Source of the DNA: Thermodesulfobacteriota bacterium
Lineage (GTDB): Bacteria; Desulfobacterota; UBA8473
Direction of reading: 5' to 3'
Assembly (NCBI GenBank): GCA_040757775.1
Contig: JBFLWQ010000011.1
Span: forward strand, 1-64,000
Length of the DNA stretch: 64,000 bases
The notes below the pieces were generated by a model that was not told the origin of the DNA, searched no databases, and was given only the letters and a program-made list of their open reading frames with translations. Made by a program: the position numbers and the translations under genes. How positions within the stretch are numbered: the stretch's first letter is position 1; each line of letters starts with the position of its first letter. Below, piece after piece: positions 50,072 to 61,629 of the stretch.

Positions 50072-50448
50072 TGTCTTGCTTAAACTCCAATATTAGGGAA
50101 AGCGGATTAGAGGGTTCATGGAGTCTCGTATTTCACTTGAATCCTTGAACCCTTAACCCCATGGATCCAGATTAGTTAATGAATTATCACATCAAAGATA
50201 CATAGTCAATGATAAATCCTCGAATCTTCAAGATATTGACTTTTCCTTCAACTTCCTATATAAAGTCAACTACCCCGATAGGATCGAGGCTTAAAGGTTT
50301 AAGTCCGCCAGAGGCGGAAAGGAGTTAAGTGATCAAGAGAGATTTTTTTCTTTACTACTCTCGAACCCTGGAATCCTTGACTCCTCGAACCCTTGTGGCG
50401 CAAAAGGCGAGGGTTTTTCTCTTATTCCCCGAAGGAGACAATAGCTTT
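50072..50448. other. Repeat-rich intergenic region upstream of the formyltransferase gene
   Basis: Contains a TTGAATCCTTGAACCC phrase (50118-50152), repeat R1 at 50291-50340, a second GAACCCTGGAATCC stretch (50351-50395) and the block ATTCCCCGAAGGAGAC (50424-50439). The frame through 50329-50448 is open but is repeat DNA. Confidence 0.6.
50291..50340 (+). repeat. Gene-leader repeat R1, copy upstream of the formyltransferase gene
   Basis: TTAAAGGTTTAAGTCCGCCA, then GAGGCGGAAAGGAGTTAAGT and GATCAAG. The later ATTCCCCGAAGGAGAC block contains the ribosome-binding site of the gene, as at moeA. Confidence 0.7.
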
Positions 50449-51273
50449 ATGGTCTTTAAAATTGGATGGTTCTCTACTGGCCGTGATAAGGCTGCAAGAG
50501 ACCTGTTAAGAACAATCTATAACTCTATGAAGTTGGGTAAGATGAAGGCTACTCTATCCTTTGTATTTTGTAACAGGGCATTAGGGGAAAGTGAAGAAAG
50601 CGATCGGTTTTTGAAGATGGTGGAAGATTATGGTATTGATTTAATTTGTTACTCTTCGAAAAACTTTAAACCCGATATGAGAAGAGCGGGGATAACTGAT
50701 CCTGTTGTTTTGGAGAAGTGGAGGAGAAAGTATGATAATAAGATTATAAAAAGGCTAACTAACTATACAACCGACTTAAATGTTTTGGCTGGTTATATGC
50801 TGGTAGTCAGCAGTAAGATGTGTGAGGAACTGGACATGATAAACCTTCATCCAGCGGCACCTGGCGGCCCGTCTGGCACATGGCAGGAAGTAATATGGAA
50901 GCTGATAGATTTGAAAGCAGATGCAACAGGGGTTATGATACATCTGGTAACAAGCAAACTGGATGAAGGCCCTCCAGTTACGTACTGCACCTTTCCTGTC
51001 AAAGGTCCTGTATTCGATAAGATTTGGAACAACTTAAACAAAAGGTTAAAGACCAAAAGTCTTACCCAGATTATGAGAGAGGATGGTGAAAGTAATGAAC
51101 TTTTTATGGAAATCAGAAGACAAGGGTTTATAAGAGAGCAACCTCTTTTAATCAAAACAGTCGAAGCGTTTGCGGAGGGTAGGATAAGGCTTGAGAATAA
51201 AAGATTATTTATGGGAAATGAGACGATAAAAGATGGGCTATGTTTAAATAAGGAGATAGAAGCTTACCTATGA
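50449..51273 (+). CDS. Formyltransferase-fold protein (PurN-like)
   Basis: A 274-residue protein with the N10-formyltetrahydrofolate transferase fold. The catalytic Asn-His region reads MINLHPAAPGGPSGTW and the Asp is in LDEGPPVTYC, spaced as in PurN, while the central loops differ from true PurN (PSGTWQEVIW replaces the usual FKG loop). Start ATG 50449 follows GAAGGAGA; the earlier 50329 start is repeat-derived. The EhaR-like gene overlaps its stop (ATGA), so the two are translationally coupled and likely share a substrate or pathway. Exact acceptor unknown. Confidence 0.8.
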   Translation: MVFKIGWFSTGRDKAARDLLRTIYNSMKLGKMKATLSFVFCNRALGESEESDRFLKMVEDYGIDLICYSSKNFKPDMRRAGITDPVVLEKWRRKYDNKIIKRLTNYTTDLNVLAGYMLVVSSKMCEELDMINLHPAAPGGPSGTWQEVIWKLIDLKADATGVMIHLVTSKLDEGPPVTYCTFPVKGPVFDKIWNNLNKRLKTKSLTQIMREDGESNELFMEIRRQGFIREQPLLIKTVEAFAEGRIRLENKRLFMGNETIKDGLCLNKEIEAYL

Positions 51274-52355
51274 AAGCAAGGCAGTTCATTACAGATTGTG
51301 AAGGCCCCATATCGTTAAATGATAATGCTTATGAATTGACGAAACACTTTATACCCAATGGAGATCGTTTTTTTGCCCAGATAAGTAAATACGATGATAT
51401 CCTTGCGGACATAGTGAAGAGGCCAGGGTATAAGGCTGGAGACACCCTTAAATTGATTTTGCCGTTTCTGAAGGCATATGGGGCTTCAAATGGGGCTATT
51501 AAGGAATACAGTGCCAAGAATATAATCATTGTTCCAGGGGCAGACGCCACATTGGAATATATTGGCAGCAGGATGCCATCTTTCATAATCAGTACGAGTT
51601 ATGAGCCTTACTTAAATGCCCTCTGTGATTACATAGGTTTTGATAGAAAACACGTCTATTGTACCAAGCTCGATTTAGATAAGTATATAATAGAATCTCA
51701 TGAAATTATAAGACTGAAAGAAATCCATAAAGAAATAGATTCGTTGGCTAAACTAGAAATTCCTGCAGATGTTGGGGATTTCGATGGTCTCCCGGATGAG
51801 GTGAAAGAAGCAGTAAAAAGACTAGATGGATTCTTCTGGGAAGATATTCTCTCCATGAAATCAGGGGAGATGTTAAAGGAGATAAATCCCGTTGGTGGTA
51901 TTGAAAAGGCTAATGCCATACTACATAGCCTCAAAACGACAGGAAACGATCTCCAGGATGTGATGTATATAGGAGATAGTATTACAGATGCCCATGCATT
52001 AGATATGGTAAAAAAAGGCGGAGGGGTTGCTGTCTCTTTTAATGGTAACAGGTATGCTTTGAATAAAGCAGAAATTGCCTGTATATCGGACCATACTATT
52101 GTTATATCAATTATGGCGGAAATCTTTTCAACAGGGGGAAAAGAGATGGTTATGGCACTTGCAGGTGGCTGGTCTTTTGACTCCATTAAAAGGCATAGTC
52201 TGAACAGAATGTTAATCGACCAGCTTTTGCATATCTATCCAGAATCTCTTCCAAAAGTAGGAGTTATAAAAGAGGATAATATAGATAGGTTAACTATTGA
52301 AAGTGAGTTTTTTAGGAAGATTATGAGAGGTAAAGAAGCTGGAACCCTTGGATAA
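51270..52355 (+). CDS. EhaR-like HAD-fold protein
   Basis: A 361-residue protein strongly reminiscent of methanogen EhaR (energy-converting hydrogenase A subunit R): FITDCEGPISLNDNAYELTK, FAQISKYDDILADIVKRPGY, KAGDTLKLILPFLKAYGAS. HAD features are DCEG (Asp9, with Glu rather than Asp two residues on) and YIGDSITDAHAL. No Eha hydrogenase genes are nearby, so the name reflects homology only. It overlaps the formyltransferase gene by 4 bp. A phosphatase or phosphotransfer role is possible. Confidence 0.78.
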   Translation: MKARQFITDCEGPISLNDNAYELTKHFIPNGDRFFAQISKYDDILADIVKRPGYKAGDTLKLILPFLKAYGASNGAIKEYSAKNIIIVPGADATLEYIGSRMPSFIISTSYEPYLNALCDYIGFDRKHVYCTKLDLDKYIIESHEIIRLKEIHKEIDSLAKLEIPADVGDFDGLPDEVKEAVKRLDGFFWEDILSMKSGEMLKEINPVGGIEKANAILHSLKTTGNDLQDVMYIGDSITDAHALDMVKKGGGVAVSFNGNRYALNKAEIACISDHTIVISIMAEIFSTGGKEMVMALAGGWSFDSIKRHSLNRMLIDQLLHIYPESLPKVGVIKEDNIDRLTIESEFFRKIMRGKEAGTLG

Positions 52356-52813: not shown

Positions 52814-53614
52814 ATGCAAGAGAATAGAGTTATTTTAAGTTTAGAGGATACTTATTTATCATTCGGAGGAGTACAAGCACTAGCAGGAGTGAACGTAGAT
52901 ATTAAGAAGGATCAAATATTAGCCCTTATTGGTCCAAATGGCTCTGGGAAGACATCCATTCTCAACTCCATATCCGGGTTTTATCGTCCTCAAAAGGGAA
53001 ATATATATTTTAGAGGAAAGAGGATTAATAACTTTAAGCCCAACAAGATCGCTGCCATGGGGATCGCGAGAACGTTTCAGAACCTTGCCCTCTATACAGG
53101 ACTATCCACCGTAGATAATCTGCTGTCAGGCAGACATATCATGATGAAGCAGAACCTCCTCTCTGGGTTTTTGTACTTTGGTCCGGCATTAAAGACCGAG
53201 ATTGAACATAGAGAACAAGTAGAATATATAATGGACTTCCTGGAACTAGAGTCTTATAGACATCAGCGTGTAGGTGTACTCCCCTATGGAGTCCGAAAAA
53301 GAGTGGAACTAGGGCGAGCTCTGGCTATGGAGCCAAAGGTACTCCTCCTTGATGAACCCATGGCTGGGATGAATATGGAGGAGAAGGAAGATATGGCCAG
53401 ATATGTCCTGGATATCAAAGAGGCAAAATTGGAGACCGTAATAAAGGAATCACCGGCTATCGTCCTTGTGGAACATGAGATGGATGTGGTAATGGATATT
53501 TCTGACAGGGTTATAGCCCTGGACTGGGGAAAGAAGATTGCCGAGGGTACCCCTGATGAAATAAAGAATAATCAAGCAGTTATCAAGGCATATCTGGGAG
53601 AGGAAGAGTACTAG
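52814..53614 (+). CDS. livG: LivG-type ABC transporter ATPase
   Basis: A 266-residue ATPase of branched-chain amino-acid-type transporters. Walker A GPNGSGKT, ARTFQNLALYTGLSTVDNLL with LivG-type helical insert, signature region LPYGVRKRVELGRAL (LSGG replaced by LPYG, common in LivG) and Walker B LLLDEPMAGMN. First gene of the operon. Confidence 0.93.
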   Translation: MQENRVILSLEDTYLSFGGVQALAGVNVDIKKDQILALIGPNGSGKTSILNSISGFYRPQKGNIYFRGKRINNFKPNKIAAMGIARTFQNLALYTGLSTVDNLLSGRHIMMKQNLLSGFLYFGPALKTEIEHREQVEYIMDFLELESYRHQRVGVLPYGVRKRVELGRALAMEPKVLLLDEPMAGMNMEEKEDMARYVLDIKEAKLETVIKESPAIVLVEHEMDVVMDISDRVIALDWGKKIAEGTPDEIKNNQAVIKAYLGEEEY

Positions 53615-53630
53615 TAACGGAGGTATATAG

Positions 53631-54428
53631 ATGCTTGTATTAAACAACATCGAAGTAAAATATCAAAATGTCATTCTCGTACTGAGAGGAGTTACCATAG
53701 AGGTACCTGAGGGACAGATTATTTCATTATTGGGCGCCAATGGGGCAGGTAAAAGTACTACCCTCAAGGCCATATCAGGTATGCTATATCCGGAGGAGGG
53801 GAGGGTTACTGATGGCTCTATCGAGTATAATGGTGTAAGGATTGATGGACTGAGAACCAAAGCCATAGTGGATATGGGGATCGTTCAGATAATGGAAGGC
53901 AGACGGACTCTGGAACAACTTACGGCAGAGGAGAATCTGATAGCTGGTGCTATAGGGAGAAACCCCACCAGGGGGGAGTTAAAGAGGGATATAGACAAGA
54001 TATACGAATTCTTTCCGAGGTTAAAGGATGTCCGTAATCAAACAGCAGGCTATCTTTCAGGTGGTGAGCAGCAACAGCTCGTGGTTGGACGGGGGCTTAT
54101 GTCTCGTCCTAAATTGATGCTACTGGATGAAACCTCTTTGGGATTGGCTCCCATGCTGGTTAAAGAAATATACAATATCATAGAAAGACTGAATAAAGAG
54201 GAGAAGATATCCCTTCTGGTTGTAGAACAGAATGCCAGAGCAGCCCTCCAGATTGCAGATTATGGCTATGTAATGGAAAACGGGCGGGTAGTATTGGATG
54301 ATACTGGTCCCAAGCTGCTGGAGAATGAGGACATTAAAGAGTTTTACATGGGACTCACTGAAGTTGGGGAAAAGAAGAGCTATAAAACTATTAAGCACTA
54401 CAAGAGAAGAAAGAGGTGGCTTGGTTAA
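53631..54428 (+). CDS. livF: LivF-type ABC transporter ATPase
   Basis: A 265-residue ATPase. Walker A GANGAGKST, signature YLSGGEQQQLVVGRGL, Walker B LMLLDETSLGLAP (Thr in place of Pro after the catalytic Glu). The C-terminal 30 residues are a basic extension (KKSYKTIKHYKRRKRW). CGGAGG precedes the ATG, 16 bp after livG. Confidence 0.92.
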   Translation: MLVLNNIEVKYQNVILVLRGVTIEVPEGQIISLLGANGAGKSTTLKAISGMLYPEEGRVTDGSIEYNGVRIDGLRTKAIVDMGIVQIMEGRRTLEQLTAEENLIAGAIGRNPTRGELKRDIDKIYEFFPRLKDVRNQTAGYLSGGEQQQLVVGRGLMSRPKLMLLDETSLGLAPMLVKEIYNIIERLNKEEKISLLVVEQNARAALQIADYGYVMENGRVVLDDTGPKLLENEDIKEFYMGLTEVGEKKSYKTIKHYKRRKRWLG

Positions 54429-54455
54429 AGGGATTTTTTGTTGAAGGAGAAAGGT

Positions 54456-56366
54456 ATGAATATTGATAAGGACATGGATACCCTTCCGAAATTGATGTTG
54501 AGAAACTACCTGAGATATGGCGATAAAAAAGTAGCTATGCGCAAGAAGGATTTTGGGTTATGGCTTACATATACATGGAAGATTTACTACGAACATGTGA
54601 AATGGTGCTCTCTGGGGTTAGTCAGCCTGGGTTTGAAACGGGGGGACAAGGTATGCATAATAGGAGATAACGGCCCCCAGTACTACTGGGCTGAATTAGC
54701 CGTTCAATCAGCAGGTGGAGCAGCTATAGGGATTTTTGTTGATTCCATGGATGACGAGGTGAAGTACTATGTCAACCATTCAGATGCCGTATTCGTCTTT
54801 GCAGAAGACCAGGAACAGTGTGATAAACTCCTGAATCTGAAGGACAAAAATGAGATACCCAATGTCAAAAAAGTAATATACTGGGACCATAGAGGACTCT
54901 GGTCATATGAGGATCCCATCCTTTTAAGCTTTGAAGGGTTGGAAGAACTGGGAAAGAAGTACGAGGTGGACCATCCGGGTCTCTTTGAAGAAAATGTAAG
55001 GCAAGGGAAGGGGAGTGATATAGCCTGTTTTTGTTATACCTCAGGGACGACCGGACTTCCCAAAGCAGCTATGATGACCCATAACAGTGTCATATTCTTC
55101 GGCCGTGGGATCCGATCTATAGACCCCTGGTATGAGACTGATGAATATCTATCCTATGTGTCACCGGCATGGGCAGCAGAGCAATTTCTTGGTATAGCCT
55201 CAGGGCTGGATGGGGCTCTGTGTGTCAGTTTTCCTGAAGAGGCTGAAACGGTGCAGGAAGATATCGTAGACCTGGGCCCCCAAATCCTTTTTTACAGTGC
55301 TCGCTTATGGGAAAATCTGGTTTCTGAGATCCAGGTAAAGATCGCTGACACTTTACGGTGGAAAAGACTGTTGTTCAATATAGCAATGAAGATTGGCCAT
55401 TGGATGAACAAGTTCGCAGAAAAGAAGACCAAACCCAATCTTTTATGGAGGGGGTTGTATCTTTTTGCCAACCTTATCGCACTCCGGTCATTACGCCACA
55501 GGATGGGGTTTGCCAGAACCAGGGTTGGCTATACTGCAGGGGCAGCGGTAAGCCCTGATATTATTCGATTCTTCCACGCCTTGGGCTTAAATCTCAAGAA
55601 TATCTATGGCTCTACTGAGGCAAGCCTTGTAACAATCCCCAGTAGCACTGATTTTAAATACGACAGCGTTGGAACCCCTATCGAGGGATGTGAGGTAAAG
55701 ATTGTTGATGGTGAGATCGTTGTAAAAAATCCAGGACTTTTTTTGGGTTACTATAAAAATCCTGAAGCAACGGGAGAAAAGATAAGAGACGGCTGGTATT
55801 ATACAGGAGATTCCGGTTTCTTTGACGAGGAAGGGCACCTTATCTATTGGGACAGGGTGGACGAACTTCTCGATCTGAAGAGTGGTGAGAAGTATTCCCC
55901 TCAGTATATTGAGACGCGTCTGCGTTTCAGTCCATATATCAGGGACTGTATAGTTGTGGGAGGTAAAGACAGAGATTACATCGGTGCCCTGATAAATATC
56001 GACTACGGAAACGTTGGTAAATGGGCGGAAAAGAAACGTATAGCTTATACCACATTCGTTGACCTTTCACAAAAACCAGAGGTAGCTGGTATGATAAAAG
56101 GTGAGATTGGAAAGGTCAACAAGGAGATACCGGAGTTTGCCCGTGTAAAGAGATTTGTTAACCTCCATAAGGAATTTGACCCTGATGAGGCCGAGCTGAC
56201 AAGGACAAGGAAATTGAGGAGGACCTTTATAGAAGATCGTTACAAAGATATAATTGAATCTCTGTATCAGGATAAAGGGGTTATCAGTGTGGAAGCGCAT
56301 GTAACTTATAGAGATGGTAGAAAGGGAATTATAAAGACAGAGATTAATGTGTATAGTGTTGAATAA
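54456..56366 (+). CDS. AMP-dependent long-chain acyl-CoA synthetase
   Basis: A 636-residue adenylate-forming ligase of the FadD/ACSL group. P-loop YTSGTTGLPKAAMMTHNS, acceptor motif YGSTEAS, YYTGDSG hinge region and a C-terminal lysine domain ending near RTRKLRRTF. It activates a carboxylic acid to its CoA thioester. ATG 54456 has GAAGGAGA upstream; 54438 is less likely. Its place inside the liv operon implies the transporter imports a carboxylic acid, fatty or aromatic, that is activated on arrival. Confidence 0.9.
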   Translation: MNIDKDMDTLPKLMLRNYLRYGDKKVAMRKKDFGLWLTYTWKIYYEHVKWCSLGLVSLGLKRGDKVCIIGDNGPQYYWAELAVQSAGGAAIGIFVDSMDDEVKYYVNHSDAVFVFAEDQEQCDKLLNLKDKNEIPNVKKVIYWDHRGLWSYEDPILLSFEGLEELGKKYEVDHPGLFEENVRQGKGSDIACFCYTSGTTGLPKAAMMTHNSVIFFGRGIRSIDPWYETDEYLSYVSPAWAAEQFLGIASGLDGALCVSFPEEAETVQEDIVDLGPQILFYSARLWENLVSEIQVKIADTLRWKRLLFNIAMKIGHWMNKFAEKKTKPNLLWRGLYLFANLIALRSLRHRMGFARTRVGYTAGAAVSPDIIRFFHALGLNLKNIYGSTEASLVTIPSSTDFKYDSVGTPIEGCEVKIVDGEIVVKNPGLFLGYYKNPEATGEKIRDGWYYTGDSGFFDEEGHLIYWDRVDELLDLKSGEKYSPQYIETRLRFSPYIRDCIVVGGKDRDYIGALINIDYGNVGKWAEKKRIAYTTFVDLSQKPEVAGMIKGEIGKVNKEIPEFARVKRFVNLHKEFDPDEAELTRTRKLRRTFIEDRYKDIIESLYQDKGVISVEAHVTYRDGRKGIIKTEINVYSVE

Positions 56367-56384
56367 ATTGGAGGGATAATTTAG

Positions 56385-57272
56385 ATGAATACCTTTATCC
56401 AGCTTATGATTAGCGGAATAGCCACCGGTCTTATCTATGCTATAGCAGCCCTTGGTGTTGTGGTGGTGTATAAAGCGACCAAGGTGCTCAACCTTTCGGC
56501 CGGAGGACTGCTTTTAATAGGTGCATATTTGGCATGGATGTTTCTTGTTCAGCTTAAATTTCCTGTCGTGCTGGCTATAATGGCTACTATTGCCTCAACG
56601 GCCATCGTTGGATGGGTAATTGAACGGGTTACCCTTCGTCCCCTGATAGGGCAGCCGATTCTCGCGGCTATTATCCTTACCGATATGCTCTGGTTTTTCT
56701 TCCGTGGAACAACATTTCTCTTCTGGGGCGGTAATCCCAAAATGTTCCCCTCATGGCTGGCAAGTCGTCCCACGATATTTGTGGGTGAAATTGGGATACC
56801 TGAGATAATGATATGGTGCATAATTATATCCGGTCTTAGCATTGCGGGTTTGATAATTTATTTCAAATTTACCCGTCCAGGACTTGCCATGAGGGTTACT
56901 GCTGAAGACGTTATAGTTGCCGAAAATCTGGGAATAAAGATAACAAGGGTGTATTCCAATACGTGGATTATTTGCCTTATCTTATTCCTCATAACCGCAT
57001 ATTTTGTAGGAGCAATGCAAGGGATCAGTCAGGACCTTGATTTTGTTGCTGTATATGGAGTAATTATTGCACTCCTCGGAGGGCTGGAATCCTTCCCTGG
57101 CGCCATAATCGGTGGCCTGGCTGTGGGGATACTTCAAGCTATGGTTGGAGGCTACCTTGCTGGCATTTTAGGTGGCGGAATCTCCGAAGTATCCCCTTTT
57201 ATTGTTATGTTCATTATTAGTTTCTGGCGGCCGTATGGGCTCTTCGGACTGGAAAGGATAGAGAGAATCTAG
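56385..57272 (+). CDS. livH: LivH-type ABC transporter permease
   Basis: A 295-residue membrane protein with eight or so helices (ISGIATGLIYAIAALGVVVV; YGVIIALLGGLESFPGAIIG; final LFGL). The GGLESFPGAIIGG segment is the coupling-region signature of this family. GGAGGG precedes the ATG, 18 bp after the ligase gene. Confidence 0.93.
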   Translation: MNTFIQLMISGIATGLIYAIAALGVVVVYKATKVLNLSAGGLLLIGAYLAWMFLVQLKFPVVLAIMATIASTAIVGWVIERVTLRPLIGQPILAAIILTDMLWFFFRGTTFLFWGGNPKMFPSWLASRPTIFVGEIGIPEIMIWCIIISGLSIAGLIIYFKFTRPGLAMRVTAEDVIVAENLGIKITRVYSNTWIICLILFLITAYFVGAMQGISQDLDFVAVYGVIIALLGGLESFPGAIIGGLAVGILQAMVGGYLAGILGGGISEVSPFIVMFIISFWRPYGLFGLERIERI

Positions 57273-57296
57273 CGAGCGGAAGGAGGTTAATTGTCA

Positions 57297-58355
57297 ATGA
57301 AGGGAAGACCTTGTGGAGTTTTTGATGTAAGATATAGTCAGGATAAAGCAATACTGCGTACCAAAGCCCATTGGGTGCTGTTTAGTCTCTTTCTGATTTT
57401 TCTTTTCAGCATCCCCCCTTTTCTTACCGGTCACATTTTAAGCCTTGGGGTAATTATCGGTACAACAATAATAGGCTTATGGGGTCTGCAGATCCTGATA
57501 GGCTACACTCACCAGATCAGTTTGGGACATGGTGGCTTTGTCGGGGCTGGAGCCTATGTGTGTGCCGTGATTACACATCATCTGGGTTGGAACTTCTTCT
57601 TTGCCCTACCTCTTGCCGGTCTTGGTGCTGCCCTTTATGGGTTGATAATAGGGACATCGACAGTACGGTGCAAGGGGCTTTACATGGTTATTCCAACTAT
57701 CTCTGCTCATTTTATATTCTTCTATCTGGTAAATGAGGTCTTAAGAAAATGGACTTTCGGATCAGACGGTATTCAGTGTGCAAGCCCCGTTCTATTCGGA
57801 TTTGTTTTTAATACGGATTTAAGCTACTTTTATCTGGTTGCCGTTGTTACGCTTATAATGGGATTAGGATTGAAAAACCTTGTAAGGACAAAGGCGGGCA
57901 GGGCATTTGTTGCAATTCGCGATAACGACATTGCCGCAGAGGTCATGGGGATAAACATATTCCGTTATAAGCTCCTTTCCTTTGCTATTGGTAATTTCTA
58001 TGCGGGGATTAGCGGTGCATTATGGGCCCATTATGTTACGTATATCAACACAGAATTTTATCCCATTGTCGATTCCGTCTACTACGCAGTGTTTTTGATT
58101 GTCGGTGGGCTGGGATCTGTTATGGGTTGCGTTTTTGGTGCTTTTGCTTACAGGCTTCTTGGTGAAGGGGTTAATTATGTTGCGCCTTTACTGGATAGTA
58201 TACTGGCTGGGTCAGGCGGCAAAATAGTTTCCTCTATGGGGCTGATTGTATACGCTGCCGTGGCAATAATATTTTTAATTTTTGAACCCAGAGGACTTGC
58301 CCACAGATGGGAGTTGTTTAAACACTCATACAGGTTACATCCATTCAATTATTAA
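57297..58355 (+). CDS. livM: LivM-type ABC transporter permease
   Basis: A 352-residue permease. Hallmarks are LQILIGYTHQISLGHGGFVG, RTKAGRAFVAIRDNDIAAEV and VGGLGSVMGCVFGAF. AAGGAGG lies 10 nt before ATG 57297; TTG 57291 is too close to it. It pairs with LivH to form the channel. Confidence 0.93.
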   Translation: MKGRPCGVFDVRYSQDKAILRTKAHWVLFSLFLIFLFSIPPFLTGHILSLGVIIGTTIIGLWGLQILIGYTHQISLGHGGFVGAGAYVCAVITHHLGWNFFFALPLAGLGAALYGLIIGTSTVRCKGLYMVIPTISAHFIFFYLVNEVLRKWTFGSDGIQCASPVLFGFVFNTDLSYFYLVAVVTLIMGLGLKNLVRTKAGRAFVAIRDNDIAAEVMGINIFRYKLLSFAIGNFYAGISGALWAHYVTYINTEFYPIVDSVYYAVFLIVGGLGSVMGCVFGAFAYRLLGEGVNYVAPLLDSILAGSGGKIVSSMGLIVYAAVAIIFLIFEPRGLAHRWELFKHSYRLHPFNY

Positions 58356-58375
58356 TGGATAAACAATTAAACCAT

Positions 58376-58435
58376 TGGGGTCTGCCCCGACATTTGTGAT
58401 TATCCGCCTCTAGCGGATTACGGGTTTGACCCCAG
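58376..58435. repeat. Nested hairpin between livM and the LEA2 gene
   Basis: Outer TGGGGTC and GACCCCA enclose an inner ATCCGC-CTCTA-GCGGAT. It could attenuate or process the mRNA between permease and binding-protein genes, where levels often differ. Confidence 0.5.
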
Positions 58436-58469
58436 ATATTCAAAAATTGAGAAAGGAGGTAAGAGAACA

Positions 58470-59135
58470 ATGAGTAAAAAGTTATTTTTGGTTACATTAG
58501 CATTTATCTTTCTCTTTGGTATTTCTGCTATGGCTATAGGTGGACAAAAAGGCATGGCAAAAAAGGCACCACCTAAGGAATTAAAGGTTGAACTAAAGAA
58601 TGTGGCTGTGAAGATGGAAGCAGAGAAGATCCTTAGCGATAAGATTCTTATGGCACAGAAACTCGCTAAGGCTGAATCAAAGAGCGGATGGCTCAAGCTT
58701 ATGGGCATGGGAGAGGACAAAAAGATGGGACCGGTTGAAATACCGGCTAATGCCCTCCTGGCTTTGGTACCAAAGGCAGATCTCACGGTTACCTTCGCGG
58801 TAACTAACCCTAACAAGTTTGATGTTATCTTAGGCAGTATGTCTTTCGGGCTTTCTGAGGAAACCATTATATTTTTTCCTCCGGAGTCCAAAGCGGCGGA
58901 GGTATGGATAGACATTCCTGCAGGAGAAACCGTTGAATTTGAGGTACCTATGACCATCCTCAAAATTCCGTCACTGGCAGCTATTGCATGGCCAGCGATA
59001 GAGAGTGGTACTGCCGAGTGGAAGGCAAGAGGTACAGCGGTGGTAATCTCTAAAGATATACCCTCAGGCGGATTGAGACAGAGATTCGAGAGTGGGAAGG
59101 TAGGGACCACCATGGTCGAGGCAGAAAAGAAGTAA
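58470..59135 (+). CDS. Exported LEA2/WHy-type protein
   Basis: A 221-residue protein with signal peptide (KKLFLVTLAFIFLFGISAMA) and a LEA-2/water-stress-type beta domain (about 90-205; LTVTFAVTNPNKFDVILGSM, then IPAGETVEFEVPMTI). In other bacteria this fold binds lipids or hydrophobic molecules or serves stress protection. AAGGAGG precedes the ATG. Being between the permease and binding-protein genes, it may present a hydrophobic ligand to the transporter; this is inference. Confidence 0.78.
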   Translation: MSKKLFLVTLAFIFLFGISAMAIGGQKGMAKKAPPKELKVELKNVAVKMEAEKILSDKILMAQKLAKAESKSGWLKLMGMGEDKKMGPVEIPANALLALVPKADLTVTFAVTNPNKFDVILGSMSFGLSEETIIFFPPESKAAEVWIDIPAGETVEFEVPMTILKIPSLAAIAWPAIESGTAEWKARGTAVVISKDIPSGGLRQRFESGKVGTTMVEAEKK

Positions 59136-59161
59136 TCATCAGAAAAAGGAGGTAATATATC

Positions 59162-60415
59162 ATGAGAAAGAGTTTTAATAAGCTAATTTTTGTTGGTATT
59201 ACTGCTCTGATATGTGCAGCCATGTTAGCTTTTAACTCCGTGACAGAAGCAGCCAAGCCAGCAATTAAACATTTTGGAACTGTCGATCTAACAGGTCCCT
59301 ATGGTATACTCGTTCCTGATGTATGGGAGGCGAAGCTCGATGTCTATAGATGGACAAATGAAAAGGAAGGCGGGATCGACGGTCACCCGGTAGAGCTTGT
59401 ATGGGGTGAAACCGGAAATATAATGGCAAGGGCATGGTCCCACTACAAGAGGTACCAAAGGGCAGGAATTCAATTCCTCTGGATAGTCTCATCCCCTGAA
59501 GGTGAAGCCTTTAAGAGGACCCTTGAAAAAGAGAATGTAGCTTCCTACAATTACGGTGGGAGCGACCCCCAACTCTATCCTCCCGCAACTATTTATACAG
59601 ATGGCCCCGGCTATGGTGATTCATTTGGTGCCTTTTTGAAGATGGCAAAGGCAGAATGGGATAAAGCAGGAAAAAAGGGCACAATGAAGGTCGGTATTAT
59701 TGGACCTGATACGGCATATGGAAGGGCTGCCCTGGAACCTGGACAGAGGTTTGGGAAGAGGATCGGTGTAGATGTGGTAGGGCAGGAGTTTGTCCCCGTT
59801 GTTCCCATAGACCTCACCCCGCAGATATTAAGACTCAAGGATAAAGGTGTGAACTGGATATGGATGCAGGGGTTGAGCCAGATTTGTACTGTATTTATGA
59901 AGAATATGGAATCGTTGGGACTGCACGGTAAGATACCAGTGGCTGGTTTCTCGTGGACAACCGGTGCGGAGATGCTGAGGCGGATAGGACCCAGGTATAC
60001 TGAAGGCTACATATGGTGTACGTACACTTACATGACCCAGGTAGAGAAGAACCTCCCTGGTATCAAGAAGGCTATCGAGATGCGCCAGAAGTATCATGGT
60101 AAGGACCCGGATGAATACTATCTCAGAGGTGTGAGAGCAACCCAGTTTGTATTTGAGTGGACAAGGAGGACACTTAGGAAATATGGGTATAAGGGGCTTA
60201 CCGGGAAAAACTACCTTGCTACAATAGAAACATTCAAAAATTGGAAAACTCCATGGGACGTCGGTGCCCCGTTTGACATTACTCCTAATGACCGCAGGAC
60301 AGCCAAGAAGGTGTTATTTTACCAGGTCAAGGGTGGGAAGGTGCTCAGATACAGCGACTGGGTAGACGTTCCTCATCTCTACCCGGATGATATGAAACAT
60401 CTTTTTGAGAAGTAG
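59162..60415 (+). CDS. LivK-type ABC transporter substrate-binding protein
   Basis: A 417-residue periplasmic protein: signal peptide (about 1-29, cleavage near VTEA-AK), PBP type I fold (IKHFGTVDLTGPYGILVPDV; VELVWGETGNIMARAWSHYK; IGPDTAYGRAALEPGQRFGK). AAAGGAGG precedes the ATG. It is rich in tryptophan and tyrosine in the putative cleft, which would suit an aromatic or fatty ligand rather than an amino acid. Last gene before the terminator. Confidence 0.9.
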   Translation: MRKSFNKLIFVGITALICAAMLAFNSVTEAAKPAIKHFGTVDLTGPYGILVPDVWEAKLDVYRWTNEKEGGIDGHPVELVWGETGNIMARAWSHYKRYQRAGIQFLWIVSSPEGEAFKRTLEKENVASYNYGGSDPQLYPPATIYTDGPGYGDSFGAFLKMAKAEWDKAGKKGTMKVGIIGPDTAYGRAALEPGQRFGKRIGVDVVGQEFVPVVPIDLTPQILRLKDKGVNWIWMQGLSQICTVFMKNMESLGLHGKIPVAGFSWTTGAEMLRRIGPRYTEGYIWCTYTYMTQVEKNLPGIKKAIEMRQKYHGKDPDEYYLRGVRATQFVFEWTRRTLRKYGYKGLTGKNYLATIETFKNWKTPWDVGAPFDITPNDRRTAKKVLFYQVKGGKVLRYSDWVDVPHLYPDDMKHLFEK

Positions 60416-60729: not shown

Positions 60730-61629
60730 ATGTTAGACGTAATTTCAATAGGTGCTCTTAATATAGATCTCATTGCAAAGGTAAATAGATTCCCTGTGGC
60801 AGATGAAGAAGTTGCAGTTCAAGGCTTAGAAATATTTCATGGTGGTTCTGCTGCAAATGTAGCAGTAGGGATTTCAAGACTGGGACATTCTTCAGGATTT
60901 GTAGGAATGGTTGGATCCGATCAATTTGGAAATATGCTTATTGAAGACTTGAAAAAAGAAGGGGTAGACGTATCCCATTTGATACAAACAGGTGGCAATA
61001 GCGGTCTGGTCTTTGCGGCTATAAATCCTGCTGGTGAAAGGATACTCTATTCATCAAGCGGGGTTTCATCAGAGTTTGACAGATCCCTCATATCCGTTGA
61101 CTATATAAAAAAGGCTAGATTTTTACACTTAACCAGCATTATTGGAGAAAAGGCAATAGCTGCACTGGAATTTGCGTCTGGCGTTGCATATGATAATAAT
61201 ATAAAGGTAATACTCGATCCGGGATCAATACTTGCTGAAGAAGGGTCTGAAGCGCTGAGTGGAATACTGGTTAACTGCTATTTAATTATGCCAAGCCAGA
61301 TTGAGGCAAACATGCTTACCGGGCTCCAGGGAGAAGACGCAGGCAGAAGGCTTTTGGAGTATGGGCCAAAAGCAGTGATAATAACCCGTGGGGCAGAAGG
61401 GTGTTTATTGATAACTAAAGATTTAACCAGAGAGGTTCCTGCATTAAGATCAAAGGCAGTAGATACAACTGGTGCTGGTGATTCATTTGCCGCAGGTCTT
61501 ATAAGTGCTTTGTTAGTGAATAAAGGGTTGGAGGAAGCAACTGAATTTGCCACTCTGGTTGCGTCCATATCAGTAACCAGAAGGGGGGCAAGAACCACGC
61601 CTGGTAAAGAAGATATTAGAGGTTATTAA
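60730..61629 (+). CDS. PfkB-family carbohydrate kinase
   Basis: A 299-residue ribokinase-like kinase. N-terminal motif FHGGSAANVAVGISRLG and C-terminal DTTGAGDSFAAG with the catalytic Asp are intact. Sugar or nucleoside specificity is not clear. Start ATG 60730 gives the normal MLDVISIGALNIDLI beginning; the 60637 start is discarded. The stop overlaps the uvrC ATG by one base. Confidence 0.9.
   Translation: MLDVISIGALNIDLIAKVNRFPVADEEVAVQGLEIFHGGSAANVAVGISRLGHSSGFVGMVGSDQFGNMLIEDLKKEGVDVSHLIQTGGNSGLVFAAINPAGERILYSSSGVSSEFDRSLISVDYIKKARFLHLTSIIGEKAIAALEFASGVAYDNNIKVILDPGSILAEEGSEALSGILVNCYLIMPSQIEANMLTGLQGEDAGRRLLEYGPKAVIITRGAEGCLLITKDLTREVPALRSKAVDTTGAGDSFAAGLISALLVNKGLEEATEFATLVASISVTRRGARTTPGKEDIRGY

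Follow-up and report, generated by a model that had tools for sequence, protein, structure and literature searches.

A PurN-like formyltransferase and an AF1437-type HAD phosphatase as probable members of a third route for GAR formylation

The window, the whole analysed stretch of 64,000 nucleotides from a Thermodesulfobacteriota genome, contains two overlapping genes that raise the question of which process couples a formyltransferase to a phosphatase-like protein. Both are located where the initial annotation had placed them, a gene for a 361-residue HAD protein overlapping a PurN-like gene by 4 bp (ATGA). That annotation was right about the pair and overlooked a PfkB-family kinase and the purine gene clusters in which relatives are found. 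The genes of the set are:

50449..51273, + strand: FT, PurN-like formyltransferase, 274 aa; N132, H134 and D172 are kept, and the G-S-N loop of PurN is replaced by STGRD
51270..52355, + strand: HAD, AF1437/EhaR-type HAD phosphatase, 361 aa; start codon ATG at 51270, stop codon ending at 52355
60730..61629, + strand: kinase of the PfkB family, 299 aa; joins FT and HAD as the third gene of the set

The ATG start of FT at 50449 is backed by aligned relatives; the reading frame itself extends back to a GTG at 50329. The protein scores 46.3 bits against Formyl_trans_N (cut-off 26.1) and 60.7 bits against the PurN model TIGR00639, under the curated cut-off of 150.1. The solved structures closest to it by sequence are GAR (5'-phosphoribosylglycinamide) transformylases, and its predicted model, which is confident (mean pLDDT 93.3), resembles the same enzymes in fold (Foldseek E 1e-9 to 3e-13). 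The catalytic residues described for E. coli PurN include His108 and Asp144. N106 is a further one, and in the alignment N106/H108/D144 correspond to N132/H134/D172 of FT. The catalytic loop, which had been called changed, is therefore intact in its catalytic residues, with the N[LI]HP motif kept in 31/31 FT rows and LD.GP in 30/31. The alteration lies in the loop after NxHP and in the G-S-N loop, which binds the phosphate of GAR in PurN and is found within the first 60 residues of none of the 31 FT rows. The region of the lost loop contains Gly-Arg in 30 rows, the remaining row (L114) starting at the edge of its locus. R12 of FT is the invariant arginine of this loop, so that the substrate may still be a phosphorylated one. 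FT is thus like PurN in its fold, its catalytic N/H/D and an LAGxM stretch, and differs from it in the low model score, the missing G-S-N loop and a C-terminal extension. Unlike PurN, it is accompanied by HAD and PfkB with few exceptions.

HAD carries the motifs D9-C-E11, S108-T109-S110, K213 and D236-S-I-T-D240. In the model search, the protein matches generic HAD models only. With the HAD alignment as query, the best match among solved structures is to AF1437 from Archaeoglobus fulgidus (1y8a, E 4.7e-54), which was deposited as a hypothetical protein. The predicted HAD model (pLDDT 94.5) matches AF1437 with Z 40.5 and an rmsd of 1.8 over 311 residues, the next match having a Z of about 19. 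The nucleophile Asp and motif IV are kept across the family (DCEGP in 86/91 rows, GDS[IL]TD in 90/91). Judged by its sequence, HAD is a phosphoserine-phosphatase-like HAD protein and a putative phosphatase. It shares the HAD fold with SerB and ThrH (Z about 19 and 14), whereas identity to them is 10-18% and its motif I reads D-x-E; that of SerB is D-x-D. The name EhaR is one that we presume to apply to this family, the measured match being AF1437. EhaR is named a hydrogenase subunit, whereas HAD here adjoins a formyltransferase. In one genome (G013, L032:9019-10107), the nucleophile Asp of HAD is replaced by Ala; this genome is 99% complete, keeps PfkB, and FT was not found in it. A scan of viral contigs for HAD gave no relative.

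The kinase was searched with a profile built from 14 PfkB kinases that adjoin FT in relatives. The match of the window's genome falls inside the window, 8 kb from the FT/HAD pair. Likeness to PfkB nucleoside kinases and ribokinase is seen in a score of 212.6 bits against PF00294 (cut-off 25.8) and a DTTGAGD motif, whereas the cut-off of the ribokinase model TIGR02152 is missed (184.2 bits, cut-off 299.65). The kinase gene lies directly 5' of FT in G017, G024, G030, G031, G036, G050 and G054. In G006 (L039), it follows directly behind HAD and is itself followed by uvrC, which also follows the kinase in the window. Between 44 and 64 kb of the window, the ORF listing, with Pfam assignments for selected genes, gives genes of TPR, ABC transporter, binding-protein, kinase and UvrC type. 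In the window, HAD and PfkB are parted by a branched-chain amino acid (liv-type) transport cluster with an AMP-binding enzyme (52814-60415), which is absent between HAD and the kinase in G006.

Scanning genomes with the HAD alignment gave 468 relatives, from which 80 loci were kept: 57 from Bathyarchaeota, 22 bacterial and one from Methanomassiliicoccales. The pair is conserved, with FT located 5' of HAD in 20/22 bacterial loci and the other two truncated on that side. In the Clostridia-type loci L075, L082 and L087, FT-HAD-PfkB comes after purM; purH is the next gene after the kinase in L075 and L087, and L082 ends behind the kinase. The first of these loci contains the end of purD, purE, a Na/Pi symporter gene, purM, FT, HAD, PfkB, purH, purB and purA; in L082, a GuaB3-type gene, purC and purD are found in front. 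In familiar purM-purN-purH clusters, the position taken here by FT-HAD-PfkB is that of purN. The Na/Pi symporter gene with a PhoU domain (identified in L075) is located next to purM in all three loci (L075:1278-2930, L082:6582-8255, L087:490-2127); it is perhaps linked to phosphate freed by HAD.

The archaeal loci belong to purine clusters as well. Among the 57 Bathyarchaeota loci, many of which are ended by contig edges, PurD is encoded in 53, an Ftr-type formyltransferase in 49, PfkB in 45, PurF in 31, PurQ and PurL in 28 each, PurM in 25 and PurS in 24. HAD sits behind PurD, and the order is PurF-PurD-HAD-Ftr-PfkB, the Ftr-type enzyme replacing FT. In L063 (NCBIfam and Pfam), PurF, PurD, HAD, Ftr and PfkB are accompanied by PurQ, PurL and PurS on the opposite strand; PurF and PurD score somewhat under their NCBIfam cut-offs. 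The expectation that the formyltransferase goes with HAD is borne out for the PurN-like FT in bacterial loci but not in most archaeal ones, where an unrelated type is present. In 8/57 Bathyarchaeota loci no Ftr is within reach, which counts against the proposed role of the trio.

The archaeal partner resembles formylmethanofuran:H4MPT formyltransferase (Ftr), exceeding the cut-offs of PF01913 and PF02741 and matching 1m5h at E 2e-53. It differs from Ftr in falling under the TIGR03119 cut-off (239 and 221 bits, cut-off 292.6) and in being located in purine clusters, and it fits the description of Ftr2/EhaS. If EhaR is this HAD family, as we take it to be, the order EhaR-EhaS-EhaT equals HAD-Ftr-PfkB. 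Across the loci, the middle enzyme is swapped between two unrelated types while HAD and PfkB remain. In a HAD tree (91 rows, quick method), the exchange of partners amounts to two changes, a count that leaves out 15 HAD rows without a visible formyltransferase; the deep order was not used because the long branches L033 and L036 meet.

Co-occurrence was analyzed in 59 genomes, including that of the window. FT was counted as present at E < 1e-30, weaker matches being other formyltransferases, and PfkB at E up to 1e-40. HAD is found in 16 genomes, FT in 15 and PfkB in 16. FT is present in 14/16 HAD genomes versus 1/43 others, and PfkB in 14/16 versus 2/43. HAD occurs without FT in G006 (contig end nearby) and G013, and without PfkB in G002 and G003; PfkB occurs without HAD in G007 and G011. 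Two genomes count against a role of the trio, namely G041 (97% complete), which has FT without HAD or PfkB, and the above-mentioned G013, with its Ala-nucleophile HAD and PfkB and no FT. On the single-contig chromosome of G035, the three genes co-occur even unlinked, and a chance neighborhood of the trio genes was rejected on this ground.

Canonical PurN, scored over its cut-off, is found in 0/16 HAD genomes versus 20/43 others (Fisher 4e-4) and, counted by family, in 0/8 with HAD versus 18/34 without (p 0.007). These 20 genomes overlap with none of the HAD, FT and PfkB sets, and 40 further HAD genomes likewise contain no PurN over cut-off. PurT over cut-off is absent from all 59 genomes. PurM, in contrast to these two, exceeds its cut-off in 53/59 genomes, including 16/16 with HAD. 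Full PurH over cut-off is encoded in 4/16 HAD genomes (G000, G003, G004 and G006; 734 bits in the window's genome) and parts below cut-off in 10/16; it was not found in G002 and G005, which are 73 and 85% complete. With PurM present, PurH found whole or in parts in 14/16, and PurN and PurT absent, the HAD genomes have the pathway but no customary enzyme for GAR formylation. Counting against this pattern, 20/59 genomes lack canonical PurN as well as all three genes of the trio. Sub-cut-off PurN-like matches (starting at model position 4 or before and spanning at least 100 positions) are present in 14/23 genomes without HAD or canonical PurN and in 0/16 HAD genomes. The combined figure, PurN or PurN-like matches in 34/43 non-HAD genomes versus 0/16 HAD genomes (Fisher 2e-8), is not leaned on because such matches may partly be PurU.

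A similar exclusion is seen across 200 genomes of one archaeal phylum, where HAD is found in 28, PurN over cut-off in 46 and PurT-like proteins in 44 (E up to 1e-60, none over the 502-bit cut-off), with zero overlap; 82 genomes have none of the three. HAD against the union of PurN and PurT-like proteins gives a Fisher value of 1e-8, and such p-values overstate independence, as most of the archaea with HAD may come from a single clade.

The trio is present in archaea and in bacteria without the customary GAR-formylating enzymes and so probably performs this step in another way. Given gene content and neighborhood, a role in GAR formylation, within de novo purine synthesis, is very probable. The initial suggestion of a function in formyl metabolism apart from hydrogenase is thereby supported, and the process can be named. 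The FT/HAD pair probably represents two thirds of a third route for this step: FT, HAD and PfkB likely replace PurN/PurT in converting GAR to FGAR, most plausibly by dephosphorylation, formylation and rephosphorylation. HAD would strip the 5'-phosphate from GAR, giving glycinamide riboside, the primary amine of which would be formylated by FT in bacteria, with 10-formyl-tetrahydrofolate as donor. In archaea, the Ftr-type enzyme would act on the riboside, with formyl-tetrahydromethanopterin or formylmethanofuran as donor. PfkB would then restore the 5'-phosphate, converting formylglycinamide riboside to FGAR. Genome comparison supports the grouping of the three genes, their tie to purine synthesis and their occurrence where PurN and PurT are lacking. 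The detour through a dephosphorylated riboside is only slightly favored; we infer this intermediate, the sequence in which the enzymes act and the identity of the formyl donors. The exchange of the formyltransferase for an unrelated one while HAD and PfkB stay suggests that the phosphatase takes the phosphate off the substrate and the kinase returns it, and such constancy is expected if both act on the shared substrate that is not the formyl carrier. The gene order in Bathyarchaeota parallels the proposed order of reactions. Ftr acts on the primary amine of methanofuran, which is chemically near that of glycinamide. It counts against the detour that it would spend one ATP and risk losing the uncharged riboside.

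The best-surviving alternative, which we consider unlikely, is that FT or Ftr formylates GAR itself and that HAD and PfkB are accessory, serving phosphate exchange, proof-reading or salvage of a dephosphorylated intermediate. FT is a PurN relative with its catalytic residues kept, stands alone in G041, and could bind phosphate through the invariant R12. ThrH is a phosphotransferase with a D-x-E motif; HAD has this motif too, and ThrH (1rku) is among its structural matches (Z 14.2). However, HAD and PfkB stay with two unrelated types of formyltransferase across many phyla, and PurN needs no such partners. Far less probable is a role of the trio in purine salvage or in making FAICAR from AICAR. 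Later purine genes also occur in the clusters, but 4/16 HAD genomes have a full PurH and 10/16 have parts of it, and the exclusion concerns PurN/PurT. AICAR formylation (step 9) was rejected as the role because of this distribution of PurH.

The GAR formylation reading for the trio meets a gap in the literature. A part of Brown et al. 2011 (PMC3261824) lists Archaeoglobales, Methanobacteriales and Methanopyrus as having no gene assigned to GAR formyltransferase. The gap in the first two groups is repeated in a section of PMC9012536, where ANME-1 is said to lack both enzymes. The same section describes an uncharacterized Ftr2 in ANME-1, ANME-2a/2b, Archaeoglobales, Methanopyrus and Methanothermobacter; that ANME-2a/2b hold Ftr2 and PurN together fits poorly with the exclusion seen for the trio. 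According to a passage of PMC3087415, EhaS and EhaT of Methanothermobacter originally carried the annotations Ftr and ribokinase, and their cotranscription with ehaA-R was the reason for naming them hydrogenase subunits. The idea that EhaR (HAD), EhaS (Ftr-like) and EhaT (kinase) are Eha hydrogenase subunits borrowed elsewhere is hardly credible: the cotranscription with ehaA-R reported there speaks for it, but the families adjoin purine genes, the neighbor listings show no hydrogenase genes beside them, AF1437 comes from Archaeoglobus, and the named Methanobacteriales are among those reported without a GAR formyltransferase.

There is an even chance that EhaR/EhaS/EhaT, instead of belonging to a hydrogenase, supply methanogens, Archaeoglobi, Bathyarchaeota and a scatter of bacteria with their GAR formylation system, in which free riboside would be formylated by either of two unrelated, interchangeable enzyme types, folate- or methanopterin-dependent, and then rephosphorylated. 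Literature searches, judged by title and beginning of abstract, listed no paper that assigns GAR formylation to these genes; journals outside the index may differ. The trio would close a gap on record since 2011 in a near-universal pathway, giving candidate genes for Archaeoglobales, Methanobacteriales and bacteria. Its role would account for an uncharacterized Ftr paralogue and for the odd hydrogenase names of three genes, and it predicts an unusual phosphatase-kinase detour.

Further observations concern other purine enzymes. In many HAD genomes, e.g. G035, G036, G050 and G054, the IMP cyclohydrolase and the AICAR formyltransferase of PurH are encoded by a gene each. The sub-cut-off PurN-like proteins (G008, G014, G018, G021, G022, G027, G040, G045, G047, G048, G051, G053, G055 and G058) are perhaps another type of GAR formyltransferase, or PurU. 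The archaeal PurT-like matches in G173, G200, G223, G275, G226, G102, G217 and G104 cover only model positions of about 1-230 of 380, in reading frames of 460-488 aa that appear to encode an unusual form of PurT.
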